The notes under the pieces: generated by a model | Told to the model about the DNA's origin: nothing | Databases searched by the model: none | Seen by the model: the letters and a program-made list of their open reading frames with translations, nothing else | Made by a program: the position numbers and the translations under genes | From: Oerskovia merdavium | Lineage (GTDB): Bacteria; Actinomycetota; Actinomycetes; Actinomycetales; Cellulomonadaceae | Assembly: GCF_014836755.1 (NCBI RefSeq) | Contig: NZ_JACSQF010000002.1 | Location: 279,770-343,769, forward strand | Direction: 5' to 3' | Length of the DNA stretch: 64,000 nt | Part shown: piece by piece, positions 26,913 through 41,344 of the stretch | Numbering within the stretch: position 1 is the stretch's first letter | Layout of the letters: every line of letters starts with the position of its first letter

Positions 26913-27827
26913 TCAGCCCTTCACGGAGCCGGACATGAGCCCGCCCATGAAGTACTTGCCGAGCAGGATGTAGACGATGAGCGTCGGGAGCGAGGCGAAC
27001 AGGGCCCCCGCCATCGAGACGCCGTAGTTCTGCAGCAGGGCGCCGTTCGCGAGGTTGTTGAGCGCGAGCGTGACCGGGCCGTTCTGGCTCGAGGAGAAGA
27101 ACACCGCGAAGAGGAAGTCGTTCCACGCCGAGGTGAACTGCCAGATGAGCACGACCACGAAGCTCGGGATCGAGATCGGCAGGACGATCGACCAGTACGT
27201 GCGGAGCATGCCCGCGCCGTCGACGCGCGCGGCCTCGATGAGCTCGTTCGGCACGGTCTGGTAGTAGTTGCGGAAGATCAGGGTCGTGATCGGCAGGCCG
27301 TAGATCACGTGCAGCAGGATCAGCGTCGGGATGCCGCTCGGCAGGTTGAGGTCCTGGACCAGCTGGTTGAGCGGGATGATCACCGCCTGGTACGGGATGA
27401 ACATGCCGAACAGGATGAGCGTGAAGACGAGGTTCGCCCCGCGGAAGGTCCAGCGCGAGAGCACGAACCCGTTGAGCGACCCGAGGAACGCCGCGATGAT
27501 CGCCGAGGGGATCACCATCTGCAGCGTGCGCAGGATCGCCGGCGACAGCGCGGTCCAGGCCGCCTGCCAGTTCTCCGTGGTCCACACCTGGGGCAGGTTC
27601 CACGCGCGGCTCGGGGCCGCGTCACCGGCCCCCTTGAAGCTCGTCACGAACAGGACGTAGACGGGCACGAGGACGATCAGCACGAACAGGATGAGGATCG
27701 CGTAGCGCAGCGTGCGCCCCAGGGAGAAGCGCTGGACGGGCTTCTTCTGCCGGCGCGAGCCTGCCGCACCGGAGCCCGATCCCGAGCCGGGGGTCTGCGC
27801 CTCGACGGGCGTGGCGACGGCGGTCAT
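26913..27827 (-). CDS. Carbohydrate ABC transporter permease, MalG type
   Basis: A 304-residue inner-membrane permease. A 45-residue Gly/Ser/Lys-rich cytoplasmic N-terminus precedes six helices, the first being YAILILFVLIVLVPVYVLFV. The EAA loop reads ELIEAARVDGAGMLRTYWSIVLP, and the C-terminus ends MGGLMSGSVKG, the usual MalG-type ending. It overlaps the upstream MalF-type gene by 4 bp. With the solute-binding protein upstream it would import sugars, probably mannosides given the neighbouring GH92 genes. No ATPase gene is linked. Confidence 0.93.
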   Translation of the reverse strand: MTAVATPVEAQTPGSGSGSGAAGSRRQKKPVQRFSLGRTLRYAILILFVLIVLVPVYVLFVTSFKGAGDAAPSRAWNLPQVWTTENWQAAWTALSPAILRTLQMVIPSAIIAAFLGSLNGFVLSRWTFRGANLVFTLILFGMFIPYQAVIIPLNQLVQDLNLPSGIPTLILLHVIYGLPITTLIFRNYYQTVPNELIEAARVDGAGMLRTYWSIVLPISIPSFVVVLIWQFTSAWNDFLFAVFFSSSQNGPVTLALNNLANGALLQNYGVSMAGALFASLPTLIVYILLGKYFMGGLMSGSVKG

Positions 27828-28729
27828 CGGATCTTCTCCTTGCGGTTCAGGGAGATCAGGTAGGGCACGATCACGAAGGCCACGATGACCAGCAGGATCG
27901 CGCCGACGGCCGCAGCGTTCGCGTAGTCGAAGCTGGACTTGAAGACGTACATGTCGACGGCCGGAACCTTGGTCTGGTAGTTCGAGGGCTTGGAGATCGA
28001 CATGATGAGGTCGAACGCCTTGAGGGACATGTGGCCCACGATGATGAGGGCCGAGAGGGCGATCGGCGTGAGCTGCGGGAACAGCACGTGGCGGTAGAGC
28101 TTCCACTCGTTGGCGCCGTCCATGCGGGCCGCCTCGCGCAGCTCGTCCGGGATCCCGCGGAAGCCCGCGAGGAACAGTGCCATGACATAGCCGGAGAGCT
28201 GCCAGATCGCGGGGATCGCGATGGCGGCGATACCGAACGTGACGTTGTTCCACCAGTTGTTCTGGAGGGCGTCCAGACCGATCATCTGGAACAGCCGGTT
28301 GAGGCCGCTCGCGTTCTCCCCCTGGTTGGAGTTGAGGAGCCAGCGCCACACGACGCCCGAGGCGACGAACGAGACCGCCATGGGGAACAGGTAGACGGCG
28401 CGGAAGAACCCCTCGCCCTTGATGGGCTTGTCGAGGAGCCAGGCCCAGACGAAGCCGACGACCATGGTGCCGACCAGGAAGACCACGGTGTAGATCAGGA
28501 GGTTCATCAGCGAGTGCTGGAACTCCGGGCTCGCGAGCAGGTCGAGGTAGTTCTGGAAGCCGACCCGCGAGACGGGGGCCTGCCCCGTGGACTGCGCGGC
28601 CTTGTGCATGTCCGTGGTCGAGGTGGAGAAGTTGATCCCGATGAGGCCGTAGACGAAGACCCCCACCAAGATCAGTGACGGGGCGACGAGGAGCAGTGGC
28701 GGGCCCCATCGTCGAGCGGACTGGATCAC
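27824..28729 (-). CDS. Carbohydrate ABC transporter permease, MalF type
   Basis: A 301-residue six-helix permease. The first helix (PPLLLVAPSLILVGVFVYGLIGI) is followed by the large MalF-type periplasmic loop, and the EAA loop reads ELREAARMDGANEWKLYRHVLFPQL. The GTG at 28729 is chosen because GGGAGG stands 7 bases upstream. An in-frame TTG at 28744 would put the start inside that site. A 194-bp gap separates it from the binding-protein gene. Confidence 0.92.
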   Translation of the reverse strand: MIQSARRWGPPLLLVAPSLILVGVFVYGLIGINFSTSTTDMHKAAQSTGQAPVSRVGFQNYLDLLASPEFQHSLMNLLIYTVVFLVGTMVVGFVWAWLLDKPIKGEGFFRAVYLFPMAVSFVASGVVWRWLLNSNQGENASGLNRLFQMIGLDALQNNWWNNVTFGIAAIAIPAIWQLSGYVMALFLAGFRGIPDELREAARMDGANEWKLYRHVLFPQLTPIALSALIIVGHMSLKAFDLIMSISKPSNYQTKVPAVDMYVFKSSFDYANAAAVGAILLVIVAFVIVPYLISLNRKEKIR

Positions 28730-28862
28730 CGGTGATCCTCCCAAGGTGTGGGCACCTCCCGACGGCTCTCACGGCGCACAGAGGTGCGACGGGGCCCTGC
28801 CGGTGACGGTGCGTAGGAAACGAGCTGCGGGTACGGCGGGGTGGGGCGGGCCGTCCGGGGCC

Positions 28863-28923: not shown

Positions 28924-30213
28924 TTACTCGGCGGCAGCGGCGGCCAGGTCGGCCTGGTACTGCGCGAGGTCGGAAGCACCCGAGGTGAACTTGCTCGTCG
29001 CGTCCGAGATGCCGTTCAGGACGGCGATCGAGGCAGCCGCACCGTGAGCGAGCGAGGGGACGATCGTGTCCTCCGCGAAGGACGTGATGGCGGTCTGCTG
29101 GTACTCCGAGAAGTCAGCAGGGTTCGCGTCGGTACGGGCCGGGATGGAGCCCTTGGCCTTGTTGAACGCCGTCTGGCCCTCGAGGCTGGACACGGTCTCG
29201 ATCCAGGCCTTGGCGCCGTCGGGGTTCTTGGCACCCACGGGGAGCGTGAACGAGTCGGCGAGGAAGCCGAACATGCCGTCCGTCCCGGGGACCGGGAAGT
29301 ACGTGAAGTCGGCACCGGCGGTCTTGCCGGCCTCTTCGAACGCGGCCACGGCCCAGTCACCCATGACGTTGAACGCTGCCTGGCCGTCCATGACGAGCTG
29401 CGTCGCCTCGGGCCAGTCCAGACCGTCACGGTCGGTGTTGGTGTAGCTCATGAGCTTCTGGAAGTCCTCGAGAGCTGCCGTGACCTCGGGGCTCTCCCAG
29501 TCGGTCGAACCGTCCCACAGGCCGTTGTAGGCCTCGGCACCCAGGTCGGCCATGAGGACCGTCTCGAGCAGGTTGACCTGGGTCCACGTCGTGGCGACCG
29601 AGAGCGGGGTCTTGCCCGTGGCCTTGACGGCGTCGAGGGCGACGAACCAGTCGTCCATGGTCTCGTACGTGGCCGCCGGGTCGAGGCCGGCCTCGGTCAG
29701 CACGGCCGGGTTGGCCCAGACCATGTTGGAGCGGTGGATGTTGGAGGGCATCGAGTAGATCTTGCCGTCCACCGTGAGGAGGTCGATCAGGTCTGCGGGG
29801 AAGACGTCCTTGACGCCGTACTGGTCGTACAGGTCCGAGATGTCCTCGAGCTGCGCGGCGTCGATGTAGTCCGTGAGCTCCTTGCCGGCGTGGGCCTGGA
29901 ACGTGTCCGGCGGGTCGTTGGCCTGGAGCCGGGTCTGGAGGAGGTCCTTCGCGGCCGAGCCGGCACCACCGGCGACCGCGCCGTTCTCGAAGGTGAAGTC
30001 GGGGTGCTGCTCGTCGAAGACCGTGACGAGGGCGTCGAGCCCTGCCTTCTCCGAACCGGCTGCCCACCAGGTGAAGACCTCGACGTTGCCGCCCGAGGCG
30101 GCGTCGGTGCCGCCCCCGGTCGAGTCGTTGCCGGAGTCTCCGCTGCAAGCTGCGAGGGCCAGGAGGGCAGCGGTGCCCACCAGTGCCCCAGCGACGCGCA
30201 ATCCGTTACGCAT
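28924..30213 (-). CDS. Sugar ABC transporter substrate-binding lipoprotein (extracellular family 1)
   Basis: A 429-residue lipoprotein. The signal peptide ends in lipobox LAAC with Cys23, followed by a Ser/Gly/Asp linker. The mature protein has the family-1 look: VEVFTWWAAGSEKAGLDALV near the start, PDTFQAHAGKELTDYI, YSMPSNIHRSNMVWANPAVL, and GDWAVAAFEEAG in the hinge region. Similar proteins bind mono- or oligosaccharides, and location next to GH92 genes points to mannose or manno-oligosaccharides. It is the first gene of the importer operon and has a near-consensus promoter overlain by a LacI operator. Confidence 0.93.
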   Translation of the reverse strand: MRNGLRVAGALVGTAALLALAACSGDSGNDSTGGGTDAASGGNVEVFTWWAAGSEKAGLDALVTVFDEQHPDFTFENGAVAGGAGSAAKDLLQTRLQANDPPDTFQAHAGKELTDYIDAAQLEDISDLYDQYGVKDVFPADLIDLLTVDGKIYSMPSNIHRSNMVWANPAVLTEAGLDPAATYETMDDWFVALDAVKATGKTPLSVATTWTQVNLLETVLMADLGAEAYNGLWDGSTDWESPEVTAALEDFQKLMSYTNTDRDGLDWPEATQLVMDGQAAFNVMGDWAVAAFEEAGKTAGADFTYFPVPGTDGMFGFLADSFTLPVGAKNPDGAKAWIETVSSLEGQTAFNKAKGSIPARTDANPADFSEYQQTAITSFAEDTIVPSLAHGAAASIAVLNGISDATSKFTSGASDLAQYQADLAAAAAE

Positions 30214-30471: not shown

Positions 30472-31542
30472 TCAGCCGACCGCCGGCACGCCCTCGAGAG
30501 GCGTCGCGAGCGCGATCTCGCCCGACCCGCGCGGGATCAGGACGGTGGGCACGACGCGCAGGTGCGCGGGCTCCCCGGGGGACTCGATGCGCGCCACGGC
30601 GAGCCGTGCGGCCTCCTGGCCCATCGCGGAGACCTCGTAGCCGACGACGCTGACCTCGAGGATGTCGGCGAGCTCGAAGTCGTCGAACCCGACGAGCGCG
30701 ACGTCTCGCCGTGCGCCGCGCGCCGCGGGGTGCAACGCCCGGAGCGCCCCCTGGGTGATCTTGTTGTTCGCCGTGAGTATCGCGGTGGGCGGCTCGTCGA
30801 GCGCGAGCAGCTCCTCGACCGCGAGGCGGGCCGTCTCGGCGTCGTGCAGCCCGTCGCGCACATAGCGTTCGGGATCCTCGATGCCCGCGTCCCGCAGGGC
30901 GTTGACGAAGCCCTCACGACGTTCCCGAAACGTCCAGAGCCGGGGCAGGTCCCCCGCGAGCGCGATCCTGCGGTGCCCTTGGTCGACGAGGTGGCGGGCG
31001 GCGGCCGCGGCCCCGGCCCGGTTGTCGAGCACCACGGTGTCCGCGTCGATCCCGCCCGGCGGGCGGTCGAGGAAGACGATCGGCACGCCGTCGGCGAGCT
31101 CGGAACGTAGGTACGAGTGATCGTCGGCCGTCGGGGCGATGAAGAGCGCGGCGACCCGCCGCTCGATGAGCGCGTCGATCAGCTCGCGCTCACGATCCGC
31201 GTCCTCGTCGGAGCTCGCGGTGATGAGCTGGAGCCCGTGCTTGCGCAGCTCGCGCTCGATCCCGCTCGCGAGGTCCGAGTAGAACGGGTTGGCGATGTCA
31301 CCGGTGACGAAGCCGACGAGCCGGGAGACGCCTCCGCGCGCGAGGTCCGCGGCCACGGCGTTGCGACGGAAGCCGAGCGCGTCGGCTGCCGCCCGGACCT
31401 TGAGCCGGGTGGGCTCGGAGACGCTCGGTTCGTTGTTGAGCACGCGAGAAGCGGTCTTGAGACTCACTCCTGCGGACTCGGCCACCGCCGCGAGGGTCGG
31501 GCGACCTCCACCGCGTGCAGCTCGGCCGTCCTTGGCCACCAC
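30472..31542 (-). CDS. LacI family transcriptional regulator of the mannosidase/importer locus
   Basis: A 356-residue regulator. The N-terminal helix-turn-helix reads PTLAAVAESAGVSLKTASRVLN and the hinge helix NAVAADLARGG. A periplasmic-binding-protein-like effector domain follows (LVGFVTGDIANPFYSDLASGIE to the end). Three GTG codons (31548, 31542, 31539) compete as starts. 31542 is taken for the spacing to GGGGG. It lies in the middle of the locus, between three copies of the same palindrome at 26746, 30232 and 31682, and is by far the best candidate to bind them. The inducer is probably mannose or a mannoside. Confidence 0.9.
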   Translation of the reverse strand: MVAKDGRAARGGGRPTLAAVAESAGVSLKTASRVLNNEPSVSEPTRLKVRAAADALGFRRNAVAADLARGGVSRLVGFVTGDIANPFYSDLASGIERELRKHGLQLITASSDEDADRERELIDALIERRVAALFIAPTADDHSYLRSELADGVPIVFLDRPPGGIDADTVVLDNRAGAAAAARHLVDQGHRRIALAGDLPRLWTFRERREGFVNALRDAGIEDPERYVRDGLHDAETARLAVEELLALDEPPTAILTANNKITQGALRALHPAARGARRDVALVGFDDFELADILEVSVVGYEVSAMGQEAARLAVARIESPGEPAHLRVVPTVLIPRGSGEIALATPLEGVPAVG

Positions 31543-31658
31543 ATCCACCCCCGCACGATCGACTGGCGGGATTCTTCCACACCCCAGCGCGTCCCGGCCC
31601 GGAGTGCCACCTGACCCACTCGTTGCGACGAGGGGCTGGTCAGGACGACTCCGGTGTG

Positions 31659-31695
31659 TATAGGGTGAGTACACCCGACCATGACAGCGCTGTCA
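31659..31695 (+). promoter_or_regulatory. LacI operator and likely -10 region for GH92 number 2
   Basis: TGACAGCGCTGTCA (31682-31695), identical to the copy at 30232, lies about 16 bp after a TATAGGGT stretch (31659-31666) that can serve as -10. The -35 is unclear. The 345-bp gap 31543-31887 separates the divergent lacI and GH92 genes. Besides this operator it holds a leader of about 200 bases in which I see no other feature. Confidence 0.8.
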
Positions 31696-31887
31696 AGTCG
31701 AGACGAGCACACAGACCGGACAGCGGACCCTCCTGCCGCTCACCTGCGGCGACCGACACGACACCCGCCCGACCCTCGCACCACCTGCCTCACTCCCGAA
31801 CCTGCCCGACGGCGCCGCGCACCCCCGCGCGACGCCGCTCCCGGGCGTGCACCGGGGGCGGGCAGCACCCCCGAGAGGACACGTCCC

Positions 31888-34800
31888 TTGCCCGTCCCAG
31901 CCTCCCCCTCCCGCATCCGCGGCCGTCTGCCCGCGCTGGTCGCGGCGACGGCCCTCGTCACAGGCCTCGGCCTCACCGCGCCGAGCGCCGCCACGGCCCA
32001 GCCCGTCGCCGGCGCCGACCTCGTGAACCTCGACCCCTTCGCTGCCGTCGATCCCTGGATCGGAACCGCCGAGGACTTCGCCCAGAACAAGGGGAACGCG
32101 GCCTACGGCAACACCTGGCCGGGCGCGACGGTGCCCTTCGGCATGGTGCAGTCGAGCCCCACGACCTTCCGCAGCAGCGACGGCGACATGCGAGGCGGCT
32201 ACGAGTACAGCGCCGACAAGATCCGCGGGTTCGGCATGAACCGCCTGTCCGGGACCGGGTGCGCCAACCGCAACGGCGCGTTCGACTTCCCCGTCCTGCC
32301 CTACGCGGGCAGCCTCACCGACCAGGGTGCTCTTCCGTCCTCCCCCGGCACCGACATCAAGCCCTACTACCTCGCGTTCGACCACGCGGACGAGGTCGGC
32401 GCGCCCGGGTACTACGCGGTCGACCTCGCGAACGGCGTGACCACCGAGCTCACCGCGACCAACCGCACCGCGATCAGCCGCTTCGACTTCCCCGCGGACG
32501 CCGACTCGTCGACCCTGATCTTCAACACCACGGGGTCGAACAACAGCGTGTTCGGCAGCGGCGTGACCATCGAGGGCAGCACGATCTCCGGCTGGGTCGA
32601 GACGGCGCCGGTCTGCGAGGGCGGCGGACGCTACAAGGCCTACTACTCGGCGACGTTCGACCAGCCGATCGTCTCGTCAGGCACCTGGACCGGCGGGGAC
32701 GTCACGGTCGGCTCGACCGGCGCGTCCGCCCAGAAGCGGCACGGCGCGGGCGTCTTCGTGACCTTCCCCGACGGGGCCGAGGTCACGGTCAAGGCAGGCC
32801 TGTCCTACGTGAGCATCGAGAACGCCGCGGAGAATGCAGCCTCCGAGTCCGCCGACGTGACGTTCGACGAGGCGCGCGCAGCGGCGGAGACCACCTGGCG
32901 CGACGCACTGAGCACGATCGACGTCGCGGGGGGCACGGAGGCCGAGCAGGTCACTCTCTACACGGCGCTCTACCACTCGCTGCTGCACCCGAACACCTAC
33001 GACGACGTCAACGGCGAGTACCTCGGCTACGACGGCGCGGTCCACCGGGTCGAGCCGGGGCGCCACCACTACGCGACGTACTCCGGCTGGGACATGTACC
33101 GCGGACAGGCGCAGCTCGTCGCGCTGCTCTTCCCGGACGTCGCGTCCGACATCAACCAGTCGATCGTCGACCTGGTCGACCAGTCGGGCTACTGGCCCAA
33201 CTGGCCGCACCTCGGCGTCGCCCAGCAGAAGATGAGCGGCGACTCGCTGCCCACCGTCCTCTCGGTCATCGACGCGTTCGGCAGCACCGACTACGACCGC
33301 GAGGCCGCGCTCGCGCACCTCGTGTCCTCGCAGGCGCTGCCCCAGGACAAGGCACAGAACAAGCGCGAGAACGGATACCAGTTCGCGGGCCTCGGGTTCG
33401 TCGAGAACGCGAAGAACGCCGTCTCGACCTCGACGACGCTCGAGTACGCGACCAACGACTTCTCGATCGCCCAGCTCGCCCAGCGTCTGGGTGACGACGC
33501 GGCGTACGGCCGGTTCATGCAGCGCGCACAGAACTGGCAGAACGTGTTCGACCCGGTCACGCGCGAGATCCGACCGCGCGGTCGCAACGGGTTCGACCGC
33601 GGGTTCAACCTCGGCGAGCGGGGCAACCAGTTCGACCAGGCGACCGGCTACCAGTACGGCTGGGCCGTCCCGCAGAACATGAGCACGCTCATCGCCAAGC
33701 GTGGCGGGGTCGAGAAGGTCACGGCCGACCTCGACACGCACCTCACGCGGCTCGACGCAGGCGTCTACAACACTCCGTACGCCTACATGAGCAACCAGCC
33801 CAGCACCTCGACGCCCTGGGTCTACCACTGGCTCCAGCAGCCTGCGAAGACCACGGACACCCTGGACCGGGCTCGGGCCGAGCTCTTCACGACCGCTCCC
33901 ACGGGCGTTCCCGGGAACGACGACCTGGGCTCGCTCTCGTCCTGGTTCGTCTGGTCCAACCTTGGCCTCTACCCGGCGATCTTCGGCCGCGCCGAGCTGC
34001 TCGTGTCCTCGCCCGCGTTCGACCAGGTCACCATCACGAGCCGGGTCGCCGACGGAGCGCCCCGGGTCATCTCGCTCACGGCGCCCGGCGCGTCGAGCGG
34101 ATCGCGCTACGTGGACTCGCTCCGGGTCGACGGCGTCCCGTCCTCGGCCACGTGGCTCCCGGAGTCCTTCACCCAGCAGGGCGGCACGCTCGACCTCACC
34201 ATGCGCTCGACCCCGGGCACCTGGGGCACCGGGGAAGCAGACGTCCCGCCGTCGTTCACCGACGGGAGCGACGTCTTCAACAACATCGGCACGACGATGG
34301 ACGGCAAGGGCGCGACCGGGTCGATCGACGCGTCCGACAACACCCTGTCCCGCGCCGACCTTGCCGCGGCCGGCGCGACTCCTGGCGCTCGCCTCCCCCT
34401 GGGGGCGACGGGAGTCACGTACACCTGGCCGGATGCCGCTCCGGGTGCACCCGACAACTGGATCCCCCACGGCCAGAGCGTCCCGATGGGCGTCCGGGTC
34501 GAGAAGATCTCGTTCCTCGGCCTGGCCACCAACGGGCCGGCCAAGGGCACGGCGACGGTCGTCTACACCGACGGCACCCGGCAGGACGTCCAGGTCGAGC
34601 TGACGGACTGGACCCCGGGGACCACCTACCAGTTCGGCAACGTCCCGGTCGTGACCACGACGGGTCGCAACAAGGCCAACGGCACCAAGGACACGACCCA
34701 GGCCAAGGTCTTCGGGACGGTGCCGGTGTCGGTCGACCCGACCCGCACCATCGCGTCGGTGATCCTGCCGCAGGGCACCGACAAGGGCGTGATGCACCTG

Positions 34801-35130
34801 TTCGCGGTCGGCACCTCGGAGCCGATCGTCGACCGGGGAGTCGAGGTCGTCGCGAGCACCAGGTCGCAGTGCACCGGCCGGACCGGCGCCGTCGTGGTCC
34901 GCGTGGTCAACGACGACACCGTCCCCCTCGACGTCGTCGTGGCGACGGCGTGGGGCACCAAGACCTTCTCGCAGGTCGCCCCCGGCAAGTCTGCCGCGCA
35001 GACCTTCTCGACCCGGTCCTCCGAGATCGAGGCCGGGAGGGCCACGGTGACCGCGCGTCCGAGCGATGCGCAGGACGTGCGGCAGACAGTCACCGACGTC
35101 GAGTACCCCGCGGTGACCTGCGGACAGTGA
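31888..35130 (+). CDS. Secreted GH92 alpha-mannosidase (number 2)
   Basis: A 1080-residue exported enzyme of a different GH92 subtype from number 1. A signal peptide occupies about 1-39 (RIRGRLPALVAATALVTGLG, then a cleavable ATA-type site). The GH92 N-domain has GNTWPGATVPFGMVQ near 74. The catalytic barrel has SGWDMYRG near 400 and GNDDLGSLSSWFVWSNLG near 676, where the Asp pair is the expected general base. A module of about 190 residues shared with number 1 spans about 793-980, and the C-terminal module about 985-1080 ends TCGQ. The TTG at 31888 is chosen with GAGAGG upstream. An ATG at 31681 opens the same frame but overlaps the operator and would precede the signal peptide by 69 odd residues. 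Confidence 0.9.
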   Translation: MPVPASPSRIRGRLPALVAATALVTGLGLTAPSAATAQPVAGADLVNLDPFAAVDPWIGTAEDFAQNKGNAAYGNTWPGATVPFGMVQSSPTTFRSSDGDMRGGYEYSADKIRGFGMNRLSGTGCANRNGAFDFPVLPYAGSLTDQGALPSSPGTDIKPYYLAFDHADEVGAPGYYAVDLANGVTTELTATNRTAISRFDFPADADSSTLIFNTTGSNNSVFGSGVTIEGSTISGWVETAPVCEGGGRYKAYYSATFDQPIVSSGTWTGGDVTVGSTGASAQKRHGAGVFVTFPDGAEVTVKAGLSYVSIENAAENAASESADVTFDEARAAAETTWRDALSTIDVAGGTEAEQVTLYTALYHSLLHPNTYDDVNGEYLGYDGAVHRVEPGRHHYATYSGWDMYRGQAQLVALLFPDVASDINQSIVDLVDQSGYWPNWPHLGVAQQKMSGDSLPTVLSVIDAFGSTDYDREAALAHLVSSQALPQDKAQNKRENGYQFAGLGFVENAKNAVSTSTTLEYATNDFSIAQLAQRLGDDAAYGRFMQRAQNWQNVFDPVTREIRPRGRNGFDRGFNLGERGNQFDQATGYQYGWAVPQNMSTLIAKRGGVEKVTADLDTHLTRLDAGVYNTPYAYMSNQPSTSTPWVYHWLQQPAKTTDTLDRARAELFTTAPTGVPGNDDLGSLSSWFVWSNLGLYPAIFGRAELLVSSPAFDQVTITSRVADGAPRVISLTAPGASSGSRYVDSLRVDGVPSSATWLPESFTQQGGTLDLTMRSTPGTWGTGEADVPPSFTDGSDVFNNIGTTMDGKGATGSIDASDNTLSRADLAAAGATPGARLPLGATGVTYTWPDAAPGAPDNWIPHGQSVPMGVRVEKISFLGLATNGPAKGTATVVYTDGTRQDVQVELTDWTPGTTYQFGNVPVVTTTGRNKANGTKDTTQAKVFGTVPVSVDPTRTIASVILPQGTDKGVMHLFAVGTSEPIVDRGVEVVASTRSQCTGRTGAVVVRVVNDDTVPLDVVVATAWGTKTFSQVAPGKSAAQTFSTRSSEIEAGRATVTARPSDAQDVRQTVTDVEYPAVTCGQ

Positions 35131-35137
35131 GCACGGC

Positions 35138-35169
35138 CCTGGGGGCGGGAGCGTCCTTCCGCCCCCAGG
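35138..35169 (+). terminator. Hairpin after GH92 number 2
   Basis: A perfect 11-bp stem CCTGGGGGCGG / CCGCCCCCAGG with a 10-base loop, 7 bp after the stop codon and 47 bp before the next start. The next gene runs in the same direction, so it may be a partial terminator inside an operon. Confidence 0.65.
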
Positions 35170-35216
35170 ACTCCACCCCTCCGATGCGTCGACGACGACG
35201 CAGGAAGCAGCCGACC

Positions 35217-38200
35217 ATGCATCGCACGTCCTTCCGCCCCCGGGCGGACCGCGCTCCCGAGCCCCGGGCCTCGCACCGGCCCGGTCGGCGCGCGCTCCGA
35301 ACCGCCGTCGTGGCCCTGACCTCGGGTTCGCTCCTTCTCGCCGGTCTCACGACCACGGCGTCGGCGACCGGGGTGCCCGCGACCACCGACCCGAGCGCAG
35401 CGTCCGTCGCGACCACCCCGGCCTACGGTGCCCCCGACGAGACGGCCGCCAAGTACTACGAGGCACTGCTCCGCCACACCCGGTGGGTCGAGTCGGTCTA
35501 CGACCCTGCCGCGGGCGTCTACCAGCTCAAGGACATGAACTTCGCCGTCGTGCTCGGCAACGCCGTGCTCGTGACCCAGGGAGAGTACGACGCCGAGCTC
35601 GCCGGCATCTCGCGCGCGGACCTCAAGGCGCACACGCTCTCGACGATCACGCACTACGCGGCGTCGAACCGCCTCGTGAACCCCCAGGGCACCTGGGGGC
35701 GCAAGCTGTTCTGGGAGTCGACCTTCCAGTCGTACTTCCTCGCCGCGGGCCGCCTCCTGTGGGACGACCTCGACGCGACGACGCGCGCGAACCTCACGAA
35801 GATCGCGACCGGGCAGTCGCGCTACGCGGCCGACCTGAACTTCGCCCAGGACCCGCTGTCGGGCGGCTGGAACGCCCACTGGCCCACCGGCGGGTACAAG
35901 GGCGACACCGCACAGGAGGAGGTCGGCGTCTACACGCAGGCCCTCGCTCCGGGTCTCGCCTGGGCGCCCGACGACCCCGACGCCGACCGCTGGGCCGACC
36001 AGCTCGCGACCTGGGGGCGCAACGCCGCGGGCCAGCCGACAGCCGACAGGAACAACCCCGCGGTCGTGGCAGGCGCTCCCGTCTCGGACAACACGATGCA
36101 GAACGTCTACGACACCTACATCGTGGAGAACCACGGATCGTTCGGCCCGCACTACCAGTCGGACGTGTGGCGCTCGGGGGCGCGCAACGCGATCCACTTC
36201 CTCCTGGCGGGCGAGCCCATCCCGGAGATCCTGCTCGAGCAGCCCAACTCCGCGGAGCTGTGGCGGTCCATCCAGCTCGTCATGTCGGAGCAGGGCGAGC
36301 CGTTCATGCCCATGGTCAACGACCGCGAGTTCCTCTACGGCCGCGACGTCCTGCCCGTGGCCTTCCTCGGTCAGGTCCTGCGCGACCCTGACGCGGCCCG
36401 CGCCGAGGCGAGCCTCGCGGACGCTCTCGCGGACTATCAGATGTATGCGCCCGTCTACCGCCTGACGAAGTTCTCGGGCGAGGCCAAGTACGAGCCCGAG
36501 GCGCGCGCCGAGATCGCGATCTCCTACCTCCTGCACGTCGCGAGCGCCGAGTCCCCCGAGGGGCCGGTGACCCCGACCCCTTCCGACGAGCTCTTCGACC
36601 GCCTCGCGGGCGTCCGTGACTTCGGCGCGGGGCCGGGACTCGTCGTCCAGCAGTCCGCGAACGCCTGGGCAGGTGCGGTCAGCCGCCAGGGCTTCGTCAA
36701 GTTCCCCTGGGTCCCCGAGCAGGACTCGTGGCTCTTCCACCTCTCCGGCAGCTCCCCCTTCCTCTACCCGAGCGCCTCGGCTCAGGTGAGCGCCCGGTCG
36801 GTCGACGTCTCGACCGCCGCGAGGGACGGGTTCGACGGGACCGCCTCGGTCTTCCGGATCGGCGACGGGTACGCGGGCCAGGTGACGCTCCCGACCGGGT
36901 CGGCGGTCTACGCCTCGACGGGCGCAGGCCCCACCGACGGGACCGTGACCGTCCGCAACCTCGACATGGGCGGGTACGACGGGCTCGACGGGTCGCGCAC
37001 CTACACGACGTCCGACGGAGAGGTCACCGCGGCCAACCCCGTCGTCCCGGCCGTCGACCCGGCCGACGCCAACGCCGCACGCGTCGACGACCTGGCGCTG
37101 GGTCAGGTCCAGGCCCGCTACGTGCGGATGAAGGGCATCCGCGGCAACGCGACGTACGGCTACTCGATGTACGCGTTCCACGCCTACGGCCCGGACGGGA
37201 CGGTCGACCTGGCCGCGAGGAAGCCCGCGACCGCGTCGAGCCAGGACACCGAGGGCGGCCGCACGGCCGTACGCGTCACGGACGGCAGCCCCACGACCCG
37301 GTGGGCGGTCTCCAAGGCCGACCGCACGCGCCCCGACTCGTGGGTCCAGGTGGACCTGGGCGCGGAGACGACGCTGGCCTCGGTGCGCCTGGCGTGGGAG
37401 GTCTCGGCCGGCGCCGAGTACACCGTGGAGACCTCGCTCGACGGCACGACCTGGACCGTCGCGTCCCGCTACGGGAAGTCGGCCCAGGACGCGAACGTCG
37501 CGCGCCTCGACACCGTGGACCTCACGGCGGCGGACGGCTCCTCCTCCGCCCCCGCCCGGTTCGTCCGCATGCAGGGCGTCCGCGGCAACGCCGACTACGG
37601 GTACTCGCTCTACCACCTGCGCGCGTTCGGTCCGCTGGGGGCGACGAACCTCGCGGCGGGCAGGCCCGCGACCGCGTCGAGCGCCGACGACGGCAAGCCC
37701 GCGACCGCGGTCACGGACGGCAAGGCCGACACCCGCTGGGCCGTCTCGCGCACCGACCGCACCCGGCCCGACTCCTGGGTGCAGATCGACCTCGGCACCG
37801 TCCAGGACGTGTCCCGGGTCGAGCTGGGCTGGGAGGCGTCGGCCGGTGACGTCTACGTGATCCAGACCTCGACCGACGGCACGACCTGGCACGACGCCGG
37901 ACGGCACGAGGAGAAGGGCGACGAGGTCCTGCGCTCGCAGGGCGGCTGGATCAACATCGAGGGCAAGGGCGGGTTCGTGGTCCGTGGCACGGACGCCCCG
38001 CTGACCGTCTCCCGCTCGGGCGACGCCAAGCACGTCGTGCGCCTGGCCGACGGCGCGTCGGGCCCCCGGCTCGTCGAGGCCGTGGTCGGCGACGCGGCGG
38101 CCACCGCGCAGCAGGCCGCGCGCGCCGTCCCGACGAGCAGCTCGCCCGGGACGCTCGTGAGCGCTCTGGACGGCTACCTGTCGGTCTTCAACCTCACCGG

Positions 38201-39221
38201 CGCGCCGGTCACCACGACGGTCACGGTGGCCCACGACGGCACGACGGCGACCCTGTACCCGGGCGCCCAGCGCGTGACGGCTGCCGGTTCCCAGGTCGAG
38301 GTGAGCGTCCCGGCCGGCAGCGCGGTCGTCCTGGCACCCCGCGCGACGCTCGACGTCTCGCAGGTCAGCGGGTCGTTCGACGCCGACGTCACCGACGCAC
38401 GCACCGTGCTCCTCACCTCGGCCGCGCCCGTCTCGCTCGTCCTCCGCAACGCCGAGACGGGCGACGCCCGCGAGGTCGCGGTCCCGGGCAAGGCGTCGCC
38501 CACGACGCTCCGCTTCCGGGGAGCGACCCCGTTCCCTGTCGCGGACCACGCCCTGAGCACCCTCACGTTCCCGGCGTCGGTGCTCCCGTCGGGCATGACG
38601 TCTCCGTCGCTCGCGGTCGACGGCGACGCGTCGACCGTCTGGTCGCCGGGTTCCGCCGAGGGGCGCATGGTCACCGACCTCGGTGCCCCGCAGGAGGTCG
38701 GCCGCGTCGTCACACGCTGGGACGGAGACGCCCCTGCGGCCACGGTCTCGGTCAGCGACGACGGTCTGACCTTCACGGACGTCGGCCGGATCGAGGGCGG
38801 ATCCGTCCGCGGCTCGCTCGACGTCGGAGCCACCACGCGCTACGTCGCCCTGACCGTCGACGGTTGGGCCGCGGGCGGGCCGGGGCTCTCGAGCCTCCGG
38901 GCCCTCGCCCCGGGGGCCGCCGACCCGGAGCTCGCGACCGACCTGTCGATCGGCACGACGGTCACCACGAGGTGCACGGCCGGGGTCCAGTACCTGTCCG
39001 TCCGCGTCGTGAACGGCGAGCCGGTCCCGCTCGACGTGGTCGTCCGGACGCCCGCGGGCACCAAGACGTTCGTCGGGGTCGCCCCGGGACGGTCCGCGTC
39101 CCAGACCTTCCGGGTACGCGACGCCGCTGACGCCACCGGCGTCGTCGAGACCACCGCCTCAGGGACCGACGGCGGCATCACCGTCGTCGAGTCCCCCTTC
39201 CAGCCGGCCACCTGCGGGTAG
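35217..39221 (+). CDS. Large secreted multidomain protein, probable new glycan-active enzyme with discoidin modules
   Basis: A 1334-residue exported protein. The signal peptide has RRALRTAVVALTSG and probably cleaves near ASA (about 50). Residues 60-440 are helix-rich, with aromatic and acidic residues (NAHWPTGGYKGDTAQEEVGVY, VENHGSFGPHYQSDVWRSG, GEPFMPMVNDREFLYGRD). This looks like an alpha/alpha toroid as in polysaccharide lyases and several glycosidases, but I cannot name the family. A beta-rich domain begins near 500. One half and two near-complete discoidin (F5/8 C) domains (about 624-900) appear inserted into it, since strands resume afterwards with GGWINIEGKGGFVVRG. A third discoidin-like domain lies at about 1117-1235 and the C-terminal module at 1245-1334 ends TCG. 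AGGAAG precedes the ATG. Confidence 0.75.
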   Translation: MHRTSFRPRADRAPEPRASHRPGRRALRTAVVALTSGSLLLAGLTTTASATGVPATTDPSAASVATTPAYGAPDETAAKYYEALLRHTRWVESVYDPAAGVYQLKDMNFAVVLGNAVLVTQGEYDAELAGISRADLKAHTLSTITHYAASNRLVNPQGTWGRKLFWESTFQSYFLAAGRLLWDDLDATTRANLTKIATGQSRYAADLNFAQDPLSGGWNAHWPTGGYKGDTAQEEVGVYTQALAPGLAWAPDDPDADRWADQLATWGRNAAGQPTADRNNPAVVAGAPVSDNTMQNVYDTYIVENHGSFGPHYQSDVWRSGARNAIHFLLAGEPIPEILLEQPNSAELWRSIQLVMSEQGEPFMPMVNDREFLYGRDVLPVAFLGQVLRDPDAARAEASLADALADYQMYAPVYRLTKFSGEAKYEPEARAEIAISYLLHVASAESPEGPVTPTPSDELFDRLAGVRDFGAGPGLVVQQSANAWAGAVSRQGFVKFPWVPEQDSWLFHLSGSSPFLYPSASAQVSARSVDVSTAARDGFDGTASVFRIGDGYAGQVTLPTGSAVYASTGAGPTDGTVTVRNLDMGGYDGLDGSRTYTTSDGEVTAANPVVPAVDPADANAARVDDLALGQVQARYVRMKGIRGNATYGYSMYAFHAYGPDGTVDLAARKPATASSQDTEGGRTAVRVTDGSPTTRWAVSKADRTRPDSWVQVDLGAETTLASVRLAWEVSAGAEYTVETSLDGTTWTVASRYGKSAQDANVARLDTVDLTAADGSSSAPARFVRMQGVRGNADYGYSLYHLRAFGPLGATNLAAGRPATASSADDGKPATAVTDGKADTRWAVSRTDRTRPDSWVQIDLGTVQDVSRVELGWEASAGDVYVIQTSTDGTTWHDAGRHEEKGDEVLRSQGGWINIEGKGGFVVRGTDAPLTVSRSGDAKHVVRLADGASGPRLVEAVVGDAAATAQQAARAVPTSSSPGTLVSALDGYLSVFNLTGAPVTTTVTVAHDGTTATLYPGAQRVTAAGSQVEVSVPAGSAVVLAPRATLDVSQVSGSFDADVTDARTVLLTSAAPVSLVLRNAETGDAREVAVPGKASPTTLRFRGATPFPVADHALSTLTFPASVLPSGMTSPSLAVDGDASTVWSPGSAEGRMVTDLGAPQEVGRVVTRWDGDAPAATVSVSDDGLTFTDVGRIEGGSVRGSLDVGATTRYVALTVDGWAAGGPGLSSLRALAPGAADPELATDLSIGTTVTTRCTAGVQYLSVRVVNGEPVPLDVVVRTPAGTKTFVGVAPGRSASQTFRVRDAADATGVVETTASGTDGGITVVESPFQPATCG

Positions 39222-39657: not shown

Positions 39658-39826
39658 GCATCGGCGCCCGTGCGACCAGGACGGGACGACCACCGGGGTG
39701 CGCTCCGCCGTCGGGCCTGAACGGATTCGTCGTCGTGCTCCACCCTCGGCTAATCTTCGATCGCCCTGCCGGTCCAGGACGCCGCCGGAGGGTTGCTCGC
39801 AGGCGGCCAGAGCAGCAGGAGGCCTG

Positions 39827-41344
39827 ATGGGTCGCACCGCTCCCGGGTGGTACCCGGATCCTTCGGCCGCCGGCACCGAGCGGTGGTTCGACGGCGACCG
39901 CTGGTCCCAGCACACGCGCCCCACTGCCCTGCCCGCGAGCACGCAGCGCCTGCCTCTCGGGGTGGGCGCGGCGCTCCCCCGCGAGGACCAGCCCGCGACC
40001 CCGTTCGCCGAGGTCAGACCATCGGTCGAGGAGCAGCCCGCCACGTACGCGCCGGCGTCCTCGGTACGCGCTCTCCCTCCCGTGCCGCTTCCGCCGGCGG
40101 CGGCCGTGAGGTCGGAGCACGCCGCAGGCCCGCAGCGGACCGGCCCGACGGCGCAGCGCACCCGAGCGCGTCGGCCCGCCCCTCAGCGGGGCCTTCTCTC
40201 CAAGCCCGCGCTCTGGGTCGGGGCCGCCGTGCTGGTCGTCGCGGTCGCCGGCAGCGCCGCAGCCCTCGCAGGACAGGGCGACGACCCGGCACCGCCGGCC
40301 GTGGTCGCCAGGCCGTCGACCGCCCCGACGCCCGTCGAGGAGCCGCCCGAGGACAGCACCCCGGACTACATCGAGGTCGCGAACTCGGCGGTCCTCGAGC
40401 TCGCGGCCCTCGACATCGCGACCGTGACGGCGGCCGCGCCGTCTCAGAGCGCTCTCGCGACGGTCGCGCTCCTCGAGGTCGGGGAGCCGAACCCGGTCGC
40501 CGGGTACTCGTCGGACGCGTTCGGCACACGCTTCGCGGACACCGACGGCAACGGCTGCGACACGCGCAACGACGCGCTCGCCCGGTCCCTGTCCGGGGTC
40601 TCGTTCAAGCCCGGGACGCGAGACTGCGTGGTCATGACGGGGCTCCTGACCGACCCGTACAGCGGCAAGGACATCGCGTTCGAGCGCGGACCCCTTTCTT
40701 CCGGCGCGGTCCAGGTGGACCACGTCGTGCCCCTGACCGACGCCTGGCGTCACGGCGCACAGTCGTGGGACGTGTCGCGCCGCGAGGCGTTCGCCAACGA
40801 CCCGCTCAACGTCCTGGTCGTCGACGGCACGCTCAACCAGCAGAAGGGCGACGGGAGCGCGTCGGCCTGGCTCCCGCCGGCCGAGTCCTTCCGGTGCGCC
40901 TACGTCGCCCGCCAGGTCGCGGTCAAGTACACGTACGGGCTGCGGGTCTCGGCCGCCGAGCAGGCGGCCATGGTCGCGGTCCTCTCGACGTGCCCCGGCG
41001 AACCGCTCCCCACCGGGTCGACCCTGCCCCCGCCGCGCGACCCCGTCGTCCCCGCACCGGTCAAGCCCAAGCCGACGCCGAGCCCGACACCGACGCCCGA
41101 GGCGCCGCCCGTCGCGGCCGAGCCCGCGCCTCCGGTGACGCCGGCACCGGCACCGACTCCGACCACCCGGCCCGTCCCGGAGGACTGCAAGGTCAAGGGG
41201 CTGTACGTCCGCCCGACCGACGGTGCCACGAACGTCTACTACGTGCGGGGCGAGGAGTGGAACTTCAAGGAGGTCGTGGCCGACGTGTGCTTCGACAACC
41301 GCAAGGAGGCAGAGGCCGCGGGGTTCAAGCGGGCCTGGTGGTGA
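39827..41344 (+). CDS. Membrane-anchored HNH (DUF1524) nuclease-like protein with DUF2510
   Basis: A 505-residue protein with a mosaic layout. It has an N-terminal DUF2510 motif (PGWYPDPSAAGTERWFDGDRW), a disordered Pro/Arg-rich stretch, one membrane helix near 130-150 (ALWVGAAVLVVAVAGSAAAL) and an outside domain at about 195-400 of the DUF1524/HNH type. That domain contains DTDGNGCDTRNDAL and the HNH core VDHVVPL near 297-303, then FANDPLNVLVVDGTLNQQKGD. A Pro/Thr-rich spacer follows, then a C-terminal Cys-containing motif (CKVKG, YYVRGEEWNFKEV, then CFDNRKEAEAAGFKRAWW) resembling the sunset/excalibur-type ends of secreted nucleases. AGGAGG precedes the ATG. Likely an extracellular nuclease, on the family's precedent. 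Confidence 0.85.
   Translation: MGRTAPGWYPDPSAAGTERWFDGDRWSQHTRPTALPASTQRLPLGVGAALPREDQPATPFAEVRPSVEEQPATYAPASSVRALPPVPLPPAAAVRSEHAAGPQRTGPTAQRTRARRPAPQRGLLSKPALWVGAAVLVVAVAGSAAALAGQGDDPAPPAVVARPSTAPTPVEEPPEDSTPDYIEVANSAVLELAALDIATVTAAAPSQSALATVALLEVGEPNPVAGYSSDAFGTRFADTDGNGCDTRNDALARSLSGVSFKPGTRDCVVMTGLLTDPYSGKDIAFERGPLSSGAVQVDHVVPLTDAWRHGAQSWDVSRREAFANDPLNVLVVDGTLNQQKGDGSASAWLPPAESFRCAYVARQVAVKYTYGLRVSAAEQAAMVAVLSTCPGEPLPTGSTLPPPRDPVVPAPVKPKPTPSPTPTPEAPPVAAEPAPPVTPAPAPTPTTRPVPEDCKVKGLYVRPTDGATNVYYVRGEEWNFKEVVADVCFDNRKEAEAAGFKRAWW

Follow-up and report, generated by a model that had tools for sequence, protein, structure and literature searches.

A candidate polysaccharide lyase family with circularly permuted discoidin domains in Oerskovia merdavium and its relatives

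A 64,000-nucleotide stretch of the Oerskovia merdavium genome (contig NZ_JACSQF010000002.1, positions 279,770 to 343,769; hereafter the window) carries, at 35217–39221, a gene for a large, apparently secreted protein (Table 1). This open reading frame (ORF) is a real gene and more than a chance frame, because its homologues in 25 other genome records are 67–97% identical over ~570 residues. An in-frame ATG at 35184, 33 nt upstream of the ATG at 35217, offers a possible alternative start. An original prediction, made from the sequence of the window, had described a signal peptide, a helix-rich N-terminal region, a beta domain interrupted by discoidin modules, a third discoidin-like domain and a C-terminal module shared with the neighbouring genes. 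It had proposed an alpha/alpha-toroid enzyme of a new or little-described glycosidase or lyase family, targeting the glycan on which its neighbours act. Much of this layout was recovered: the N-terminus resembles a signal peptide by eye, the beta domain is interrupted as described, and a third discoidin-like domain is suggested by a weak match of residues 1129–1216 to AlyQ (E 0.012, PDB sequence search).

Table 1. Features of the gene and its surroundings in the window (residues are those of the encoded protein)
Feature	Position	Strand	Basis
Whole gene, 1334 aa, stop included	35217..39221	+	ORF, ATG to stop; homologues
AGGAAG, ribosome-binding-like, 9 nt 5' of ATG	35202..35207	+	By eye
Signal-peptide-like N-terminus, residues 1–51	35217..35369	+	By eye
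Predicted helical (alpha/alpha) toroid, residues 70–465	35424..36611	+	Predicted model
Predicted beta module, first part, residues 466–606	36612..37034	+	Predicted model, profile comparison
Circularly permuted discoidin repeat 1, residues 617–757	37065..37487	+	Repeat analysis, PDB alignment
Circularly permuted discoidin repeat 2, residues 758–902	37488..37922	+	Repeat analysis
Predicted beta module, second part with PL8-like stretch, residues 903–1049	37923..38363	+	Predicted model, profile comparison
Third discoidin-like domain, residues 1113–1230, borders approximate	38553..38906	+	Weak PDB match
C-terminal module, residues 1243–1334, common to many large open frames	38943..39218	+	Genome search
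GH92 glycosidase, 1149 aa, neighbour directly before gene	31681..35130	+	Pfam, NCBIfam
14-pair G+C-rich hairpin, no T run, between GH92 gene and target gene	35138..35169	+	Folding
LacI-type regulator, neighbour	30472..31674	-	Pfam
Extracellular solute-binding protein, neighbour	28924..30213	-	Pfam
Two transporter permeases, neighbours	26913..28744	-	Pfam
Second GH92 glycosidase with discoidin and PKD domains, 1822 aa	21159..26627	-	Pfam

Searches with the whole protein put a name to its binding domains. Pfam reports discoidin (F5/8 type C) over the cut-off, counting three stretches and placing only the best one, with two weak families below theirs; NCBIfam returns nothing over cut-off, and a PDB sequence search finds discoidin-type binding domains. 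The residues N-terminal of the discoidins have no significant match in Pfam, NCBIfam or PDB sequences. As the original prediction had noted, GH92 motifs are absent, with no Pfam match to PF07971 or PF17678 on this protein while the preceding ORF matches GH92 at E 1.6e-123. Neither Pfam nor NCBIfam has a model for the family to which the protein belongs, and its description as new or little-described stands, no strong match to a characterised family having appeared in Pfam, NCBIfam or PDB sequences. Among the papers listed in searches of the open-access literature, where subscription journals are largely missing, none described this protein family.

Residues 52–621 have their relatives in records titled Oerskovia, Cellulosimicrobium, Isoptericola, Promicromonospora, Agromyces, Microbacterium, Luteimicrobium, Cellulomonas, Herbiconiux, Schumannella and a Microbacteriaceae, at 67–97% identity over that region. 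All of these belong to Micrococcales. The window protein and its 25 homologues form the 26-sequence target clade; alignment A3 holds 25 of these rows, with L007 left out for a masked run and a broken frame. Counting the genome of origin each time, matches occur in 5 of 59 sampled genomes among relatives, 14 of 396 sampled from the order, eight of these matches being nearly complete in length and six partial and weak, and 1 of 396 sampled from the phylum. Plasmid and phage records gave no tblastn match, and no relative was found in viral contigs with either the target-clade toroid profile (A4) or the profile of the sister family described below (A7).

The two discoidin repeats inserted in the beta module, residues 617–757 and 758–902, are identical at 78 of 139 aligned residues, and each consists of a discoidin C-terminal half followed by the N-terminal half. 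All 24 homologues examined, the 25 less L007, show this swapped order. There is one copy in L010 and L016 (Promicromonospora) and two in the other 22, always at the same insertion place in the catalytic module. The single copy of L016 aligns in swapped order with the discoidin of a Paenibacillus-type glucanase in the PDB, query residues 56–134 to chain 9–85 (E 3e-10) and query residues 23–48 to chain 110–135, the second, short alignment being not significant alone (E 1.8). In the window protein the C-terminal half falls within a whole-domain match of residues 664–805 to chain 8–137. The swapped-order alignment and this whole-domain match together show that the insert is a circularly permuted discoidin domain, present once or twice. 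The "whole domain" that Pfam places in the two-copy form straddles the repeat border. Among the literature matches listed for permuted discoidin or CBM32 domains, nothing was on point.

AlphaFold2 models were obtained for residues 70–1049 (25 sequences; mean pLDDT 71.3, pTM 0.46) and for residues 70–465 alone (26 sequences; pLDDT 69.7, pTM 0.79). Residues 70–465 are mostly helical in both, in agreement with the helix-rich region of the original prediction, and form in the models the alpha/alpha toroid proposed there, which a beta module follows in the longer one. In Foldseek, all seven matches of the 70–1049 model at E <= 0.001 are polysaccharide lyases, namely three chains of hyaluronate lyase from Cutibacterium, two of alginate lyase Dp0100 and two of an Agrobacterium alginate lyase. 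The Cutibacterium enzymes are members of PL8. Within the first 20 rows, chondroitin ABC lyase I follows at ranks 9 and 11 (E 0.0056 and 0.012, probabilities 0.41 and 0.25), heparan sulfate lyase HepC at 14 and 15 and a PL33 lyase at 20. Dp0100 is labelled PL39 and the Agrobacterium enzyme PL15 in an excerpt of PMC12088678. The structural comparison VIA likewise aligns the 70–1049 model, across toroid and beta module, with chondroitinase 9o3q (Z 18.8, rmsd 8.2 over 413 residues, model residues 1–897) and GAGase VII (Z 16.8, rmsd 8.9 over 424 residues, model residues 1–920). PL8 is missing from the 50 VIA rows for the long model and the toroid, though high in Foldseek.

The six weak matches of the order sample point to a sister family. 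The five that were scanned (L040–L044) all carry LamG-like or GH43_C2-type domains before an unnamed toroid-like core that has no Pfam match; the sixth, L039, scores like L040. In a profile-profile comparison, five of the six (set A7, with L040 left out) align with the target clade across 342 columns at probability 97.3 and E 1.9e-11. The sister profile also picks out the target in the genome of origin (E 2.5e-9), and the sisters are 22–24% identical to the target in the joint alignment. This joint set (A6) has 14 sequences: seven of the 26 target-clade rows, L037, L038 and five sisters. The Trp, His and acidic residues to which the original prediction had drawn attention are invariant in all 26 target-clade sequences, and W166, W182, W259, E234, E235, D277, N305, H306, P311, Y313, D369, G375, Y425 and E428 are the same in every one of the 14 joint-set sequences. 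Conserved polar residues are present in the homologues. D230 is kept in 13 of the 14, with Asn once, while R370 and R376 are kept throughout the target clade (26/26) but in 9 of 14 of the joint set, the sisters being without them.

Several of these residues cluster in two motifs of the toroid, N305-H306-x4-P311-x-Y313 and D230-T231-x2-E234-E235. All 26 target-clade proteins carry the first as NHGSFGPHY or a variant, and all 5 sisters as NHNLMHPIY or a variant. Its core, H-x4-P-x-Y, recurs in both PF09093 (chondroitinase ABC) proteins, which read HMGHYPAY and HVGPYPLY, and in none of 185 open frames of the flanks (88,259 aa), a set chosen by length and codon-position GC that may contain a few false genes. 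A second pattern, DG[ST]x3H, links the sisters to PL8: it occurs in 13 of 14 PF08124 proteins, in 4 of 5 sisters (ahead of H-x4-P-x-Y), in one of the two PF09093 proteins and in none of the flank frames. For chondroitinase ABC I, an excerpt of PMC8684500 proposes that Arg500 acts on the carboxylate, His501 abstracts the proton, and Tyr508 and Arg560 donate one. By analogy, the motif supports, without proving, H306 and Y313 as a catalytic pair and N305 as the neutraliser.

Profile comparison adds a remote PL8 signal in the beta module. The PL8 profile was built from 14 of 16 PF08124 matches of the same order (two without a locus were left out), and the discoidin insert was removed from the beta module beforehand. 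The global score is 25.7 and the local score 33.4; 60 column shuffles reach at most 9.3 and 25.8, and reversing the profile gives 3.8 and 19.6. Control profiles for PF05426 (9 of 12 loci used), solute-binding proteins (SBP) and GH97 reach an HHalign probability of at most 0.3% on the beta module, and profile-profile comparison with these three control sets gave no signal save a 10-residue match near NHGSF to a PF05426 pair. In the toroid, the joint profile A6 scores 25.5 locally against PL8, above the best of 60 shuffles at 22.2 (0/60 as good). Comparison of the beta module with the two PF09093 proteins (22.1, best shuffle 21.6) gave a signal too slight for use.

The best-supported reading, as judged from the predicted fold, is that of a secreted enzyme of a new family within the toroid and beta-sandwich polysaccharide lyases, a group that includes PL8, PL12, PL15, PL17, PL35, PL39 and others, with the nearest traces in PL8. 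Between the glycosidase and lyase classes named in the original prediction, the evidence leans to lyase, and we give somewhat better than even weight to a beta-eliminating lyase of this new family. Such an enzyme would cleave a uronate-containing glycan by beta-elimination: N305 (with R370 and R376) would neutralise the uronate carboxylate, H306 would take the C5 proton and Y313 would give a proton to the leaving oxygen, roles modelled on those proposed for Arg500, His501, Tyr508 and Arg560 in chondroitinase ABC I. The enzyme would be kept on its substrate by the permuted discoidins and the C-terminal modules, and in species with transporter genes the products would be taken up through that transporter.

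Each known family shares some of these features with the target and differs in others. The PL8 enzymes (hyaluronate, chondroitin AC and xanthan lyases; PF08124) have in common with it the order of toroid and beta module, as seen in a predicted model of moderate confidence, the top Foldseek matches, a weak beta-module profile signal above 60 of 60 shuffles, and the DG[ST]x3H of four of five sisters. However, the His-Tyr spacing is 7 in the target, as in the sisters, and 9 in PL8, discoidins are inserted in the target's beta module, and neither Lyase_8 nor Lyase_8_N is listed for any of 25 members at E up to 10. The chondroitinase ABC type (PF09093) shares a His and Tyr 7 apart, as in His501 and Tyr508, with Pro two before Tyr, but the target has Asn instead of Arg before His, the accessory domains differ, and its toroid profile does not exceed shuffles against the two sequences. 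PL35 GAGases, PL17, PL15 and PL39 match across toroid and beta module of the predicted model, with large rmsd and low TM-score, and in a table in the excerpt of PMC12088678 PL17 and PL39 have adjacent Asn and His. In contrast, the same source places the Tyr of these families ~53–57 residues after Asn, with a further His ~150–170 after Tyr, whereas the target Tyr lies 8 after Asn. At the level of alignment, no invariant Tyr is seen 50–58 residues after N305 in the target-clade set A4.

A number of results weigh against a lyase. Confidence in the models is moderate overall, and the stretch bearing the motif has pLDDT <50 in both. The seven lyase matches have query TM-scores of 0.13–0.22 and rmsd over 20 Å, so the likeness runs along the chain and is not a tight superposition. 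Complement, AprG, a galactanase, designed proteins and a glucuronate dehydratase stand between or after the lyases in the Foldseek results for residues 70–1049. The fold search called for by the original prediction places lyases in the lead once the beta module is included; the toroid alone, as modelled, does not discriminate lyases from epimerases, a hydrolase or complement. Toroid-only VIA lists 9o3q (Z 18.0), cellobiose 2-epimerase (17.4), human dermatan sulfate epimerase (DS-epimerase; 17.3), an unsaturated glucuronyl hydrolase (16.3) and complement C3b (15.3), and toroid-only Foldseek has no match at E <= 0.001, with xanthan lyase first (E 0.014), a GH154 protein second and transcobalamin fourth. 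In the long model, DS-epimerase (18.3) and N-acylglucosamine 2-epimerase (17.1) rank between 9o3q and GAGase VII, on the toroid. An epimerase or dehydratase, or another enzyme on this fold that modifies uronates and leaves the polymer uncut, would account for both DS-epimerase matches and for beta-D-glucuronate dehydratase among the structure matches, and an excerpt of PMC12269599, on the former GH154, points the same way. This is nevertheless very improbable for a secreted-type protein that carries several binding modules and whose gene, in some genera, lies close to those for degradative enzymes and sugar uptake.

The sequence comparisons raise objections of the same kind. Each of the 25 A3 members was scanned with Pfam to E 10, where HMMER filters discard most matches above 0.1; discoidin models and scattered weak families were listed, with no lyase or glycosidase, and Lyase_8, Lyase_8_N and PF09093 were unlisted. 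PDB profile searches returned nothing with the N-terminal profile (A2) or the joint profile (A6), and the sister profile found only three unrelated matches (E 0.58 to 1.9). HHalign gives the PL8 signal in the beta module a probability of only 10 (local) to 24% (global). In the toroid, 34 of 60 shuffles match the global score of A6 against PL8, which is noise level; for the target-clade profile A4, five of 60 shuffles score higher locally and all 60 do so globally, and comparisons with the two PF09093 proteins do not stand out from shuffles, of which 44, 49 and 55 in 60 do at least as well. H-x4-P-x-Y is found in none of the 14 PF08124 proteins and was met twice in apparently unrelated, chance-like places, and DG[ST]x3H occurs in 0 of 26 target-clade proteins. 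Judged by order and spacing, D230 (GDTxxEE) seems to take the place of the PL8 Asn neutraliser. An Asp is given as neutraliser for chondroitinase ABC lyase II in the excerpt of PMC12088678.

A downstream pathway partner is likewise missing. The genome of origin has no match to PF07470 (GH88), PF08124, PF05426 or PF09093, and therefore the usual step after a uronate lyase was not found; the absence of PF07470 counts against the lyase, and GH88 was set aside as a partner. Of 24 gene-bearing source genomes covered (the 26 without L017 and L028), 12 have a PF07470 match and 6 one over the cut-off, a distribution that also speaks against it. PL38 and glucuronomannan were considered as well, and the literature gave no link to this family.

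The main rival to the lyase is a glycoside hydrolase of the same toroid fold, with D230, E234, E235, D369 and E428 as acidic catalytic residues and a neutral or amino-sugar glycan as substrate. Four of these residues are invariant across the joint set, sisters included, as is D230 save once; toroid hydrolases (unsaturated glucuronyl hydrolase, GH105, GH48, GH76 and MmpH) reach VIA Z 14–16; neighbouring genes encode GH92, GH97 and GH2 enzymes, with an alpha-N-acetylglucosaminidase beside one sister; and the genome of origin is without a PF07470 gene. A hydrolase is still rather unlikely, as the best Foldseek matches are lyases once the beta module is included, and an invariant N-H-x4-P-x-Y with a PL8-like beta module would be unexpected in one. 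Returning to the lyase, a more specific form of it can be put forward only tentatively and is itself doubtful: the discoidin-permuted family and the sister family (~23% identity, LamG or GH43_C2-type domains) would form a new actinobacterial lyase branch with chondroitinase-ABC-like spacing and Asp-x3-Glu-Glu replacing the PL8 Asn; its substrate would be a uronate glycan without a known lyase, and no GH88 would be needed downstream.

The genomic surroundings bear on the substrate. Pfam scans of the neighbour genes covered 9 window proteins and sets of 8, 10 and 10 proteins of other loci. In the window, the LacI regulator, solute-binding protein, permeases and second GH92 gene run divergently from the first GH92 gene. 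Transporter genes lie beside the gene in 9 of 25 loci (SBP 71–98%, first permease 82–97% identical), and in two more loci a permease is present at just 27% identity. GH92 genes occur in the flanks of two of the 25 loci, both Oerskovia, directly before the gene in O. enterophila and in the flank in O. flava; the flanks of the other 23, up to 9 kb a side and shorter in some, hold none. Genes of a GH97 cluster lie near in five loci (four Cellulosimicrobium, one Isoptericola, I. cucumis), and of a GH2 cluster in three (Cellulosimicrobium), both clusters being named from Pfam on one member each. The few neighbours scanned in Agromyces and Microbacterium include proteases and transporters but no glycosidase. 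Three large ORFs near homologues (L098, L011 and L015), without a Pfam match, were judged spurious by sequence and codon-position GC.

The original expectation that the protein shares its glycan with its neighbours is not supported here, with GH92 seen only in Oerskovia among the flanks covered, transporter genes recurring in 9 of 25 loci and the enzymes near the gene in Cellulosimicrobium and I. cucumis coming from GH97 or GH2 clusters. An alpha-mannan-specific enzyme serving the GH92 locus, of either catalytic type, is improbable: a GH92 gene immediately precedes it in the window and in O. enterophila and lies in the flank in O. flava, which would fit, but the 23 loci with no GH92 in the flanks covered do not, nor does the hairpin between the GH92 and target genes (-33.4 kcal/mol when 58 nt are folded; z -3.43, equalled by 1 of 200 shuffles). 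Mannan as a substrate beyond Oerskovia is not supported. Like the target, both GH92 alpha-mannosidases of the locus carry the C-terminal module, while the target has no GH92 match. That sharing, seen in the original prediction, is real, but does not tie the protein to mannan or speak for a common glycan: this module of ~90 residues occurs at 29 places in the genome of origin including its own, 28 at E below 1e-9 and with several copies on contigs C4, C11, C33 and C43, and therefore marks a common kind of large protein. Pfam names nothing on it; it may be a cell-surface or substrate anchor.

Two other proteins were observed nearby. Downstream in the window, 39698–41344 encodes a protein with DUF2510 and a GmrSD C-terminal domain and, by eye, a suggested membrane anchor; it is 92% identical in O. 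enterophila, where it lies downstream of the homologue. In the sister family, one protein (L042/L097) adjoins an alpha-N-acetylglucosaminidase (NAGLU) gene. Near that sister gene, L097:1-3096 (-) encodes a 1032-aa protein without a Pfam match, with third-position GC like a real gene and, by eye, a resemblance to a secreted glycosidase.

These observations describe an enzyme family that is well conserved and apparently secreted, and for which Pfam and NCBIfam have no curated model. If the protein is indeed a lyase, annotation based on Pfam and NCBIfam overlooks a polysaccharide lyase group in common soil bacteria, and its substrate may be a glycan without a known lyase. The family also offers a clear example of a binding domain that is circularly permuted and inserted within a catalytic module, and its one-copy and two-copy forms show how tandem duplication shifts domain borders.

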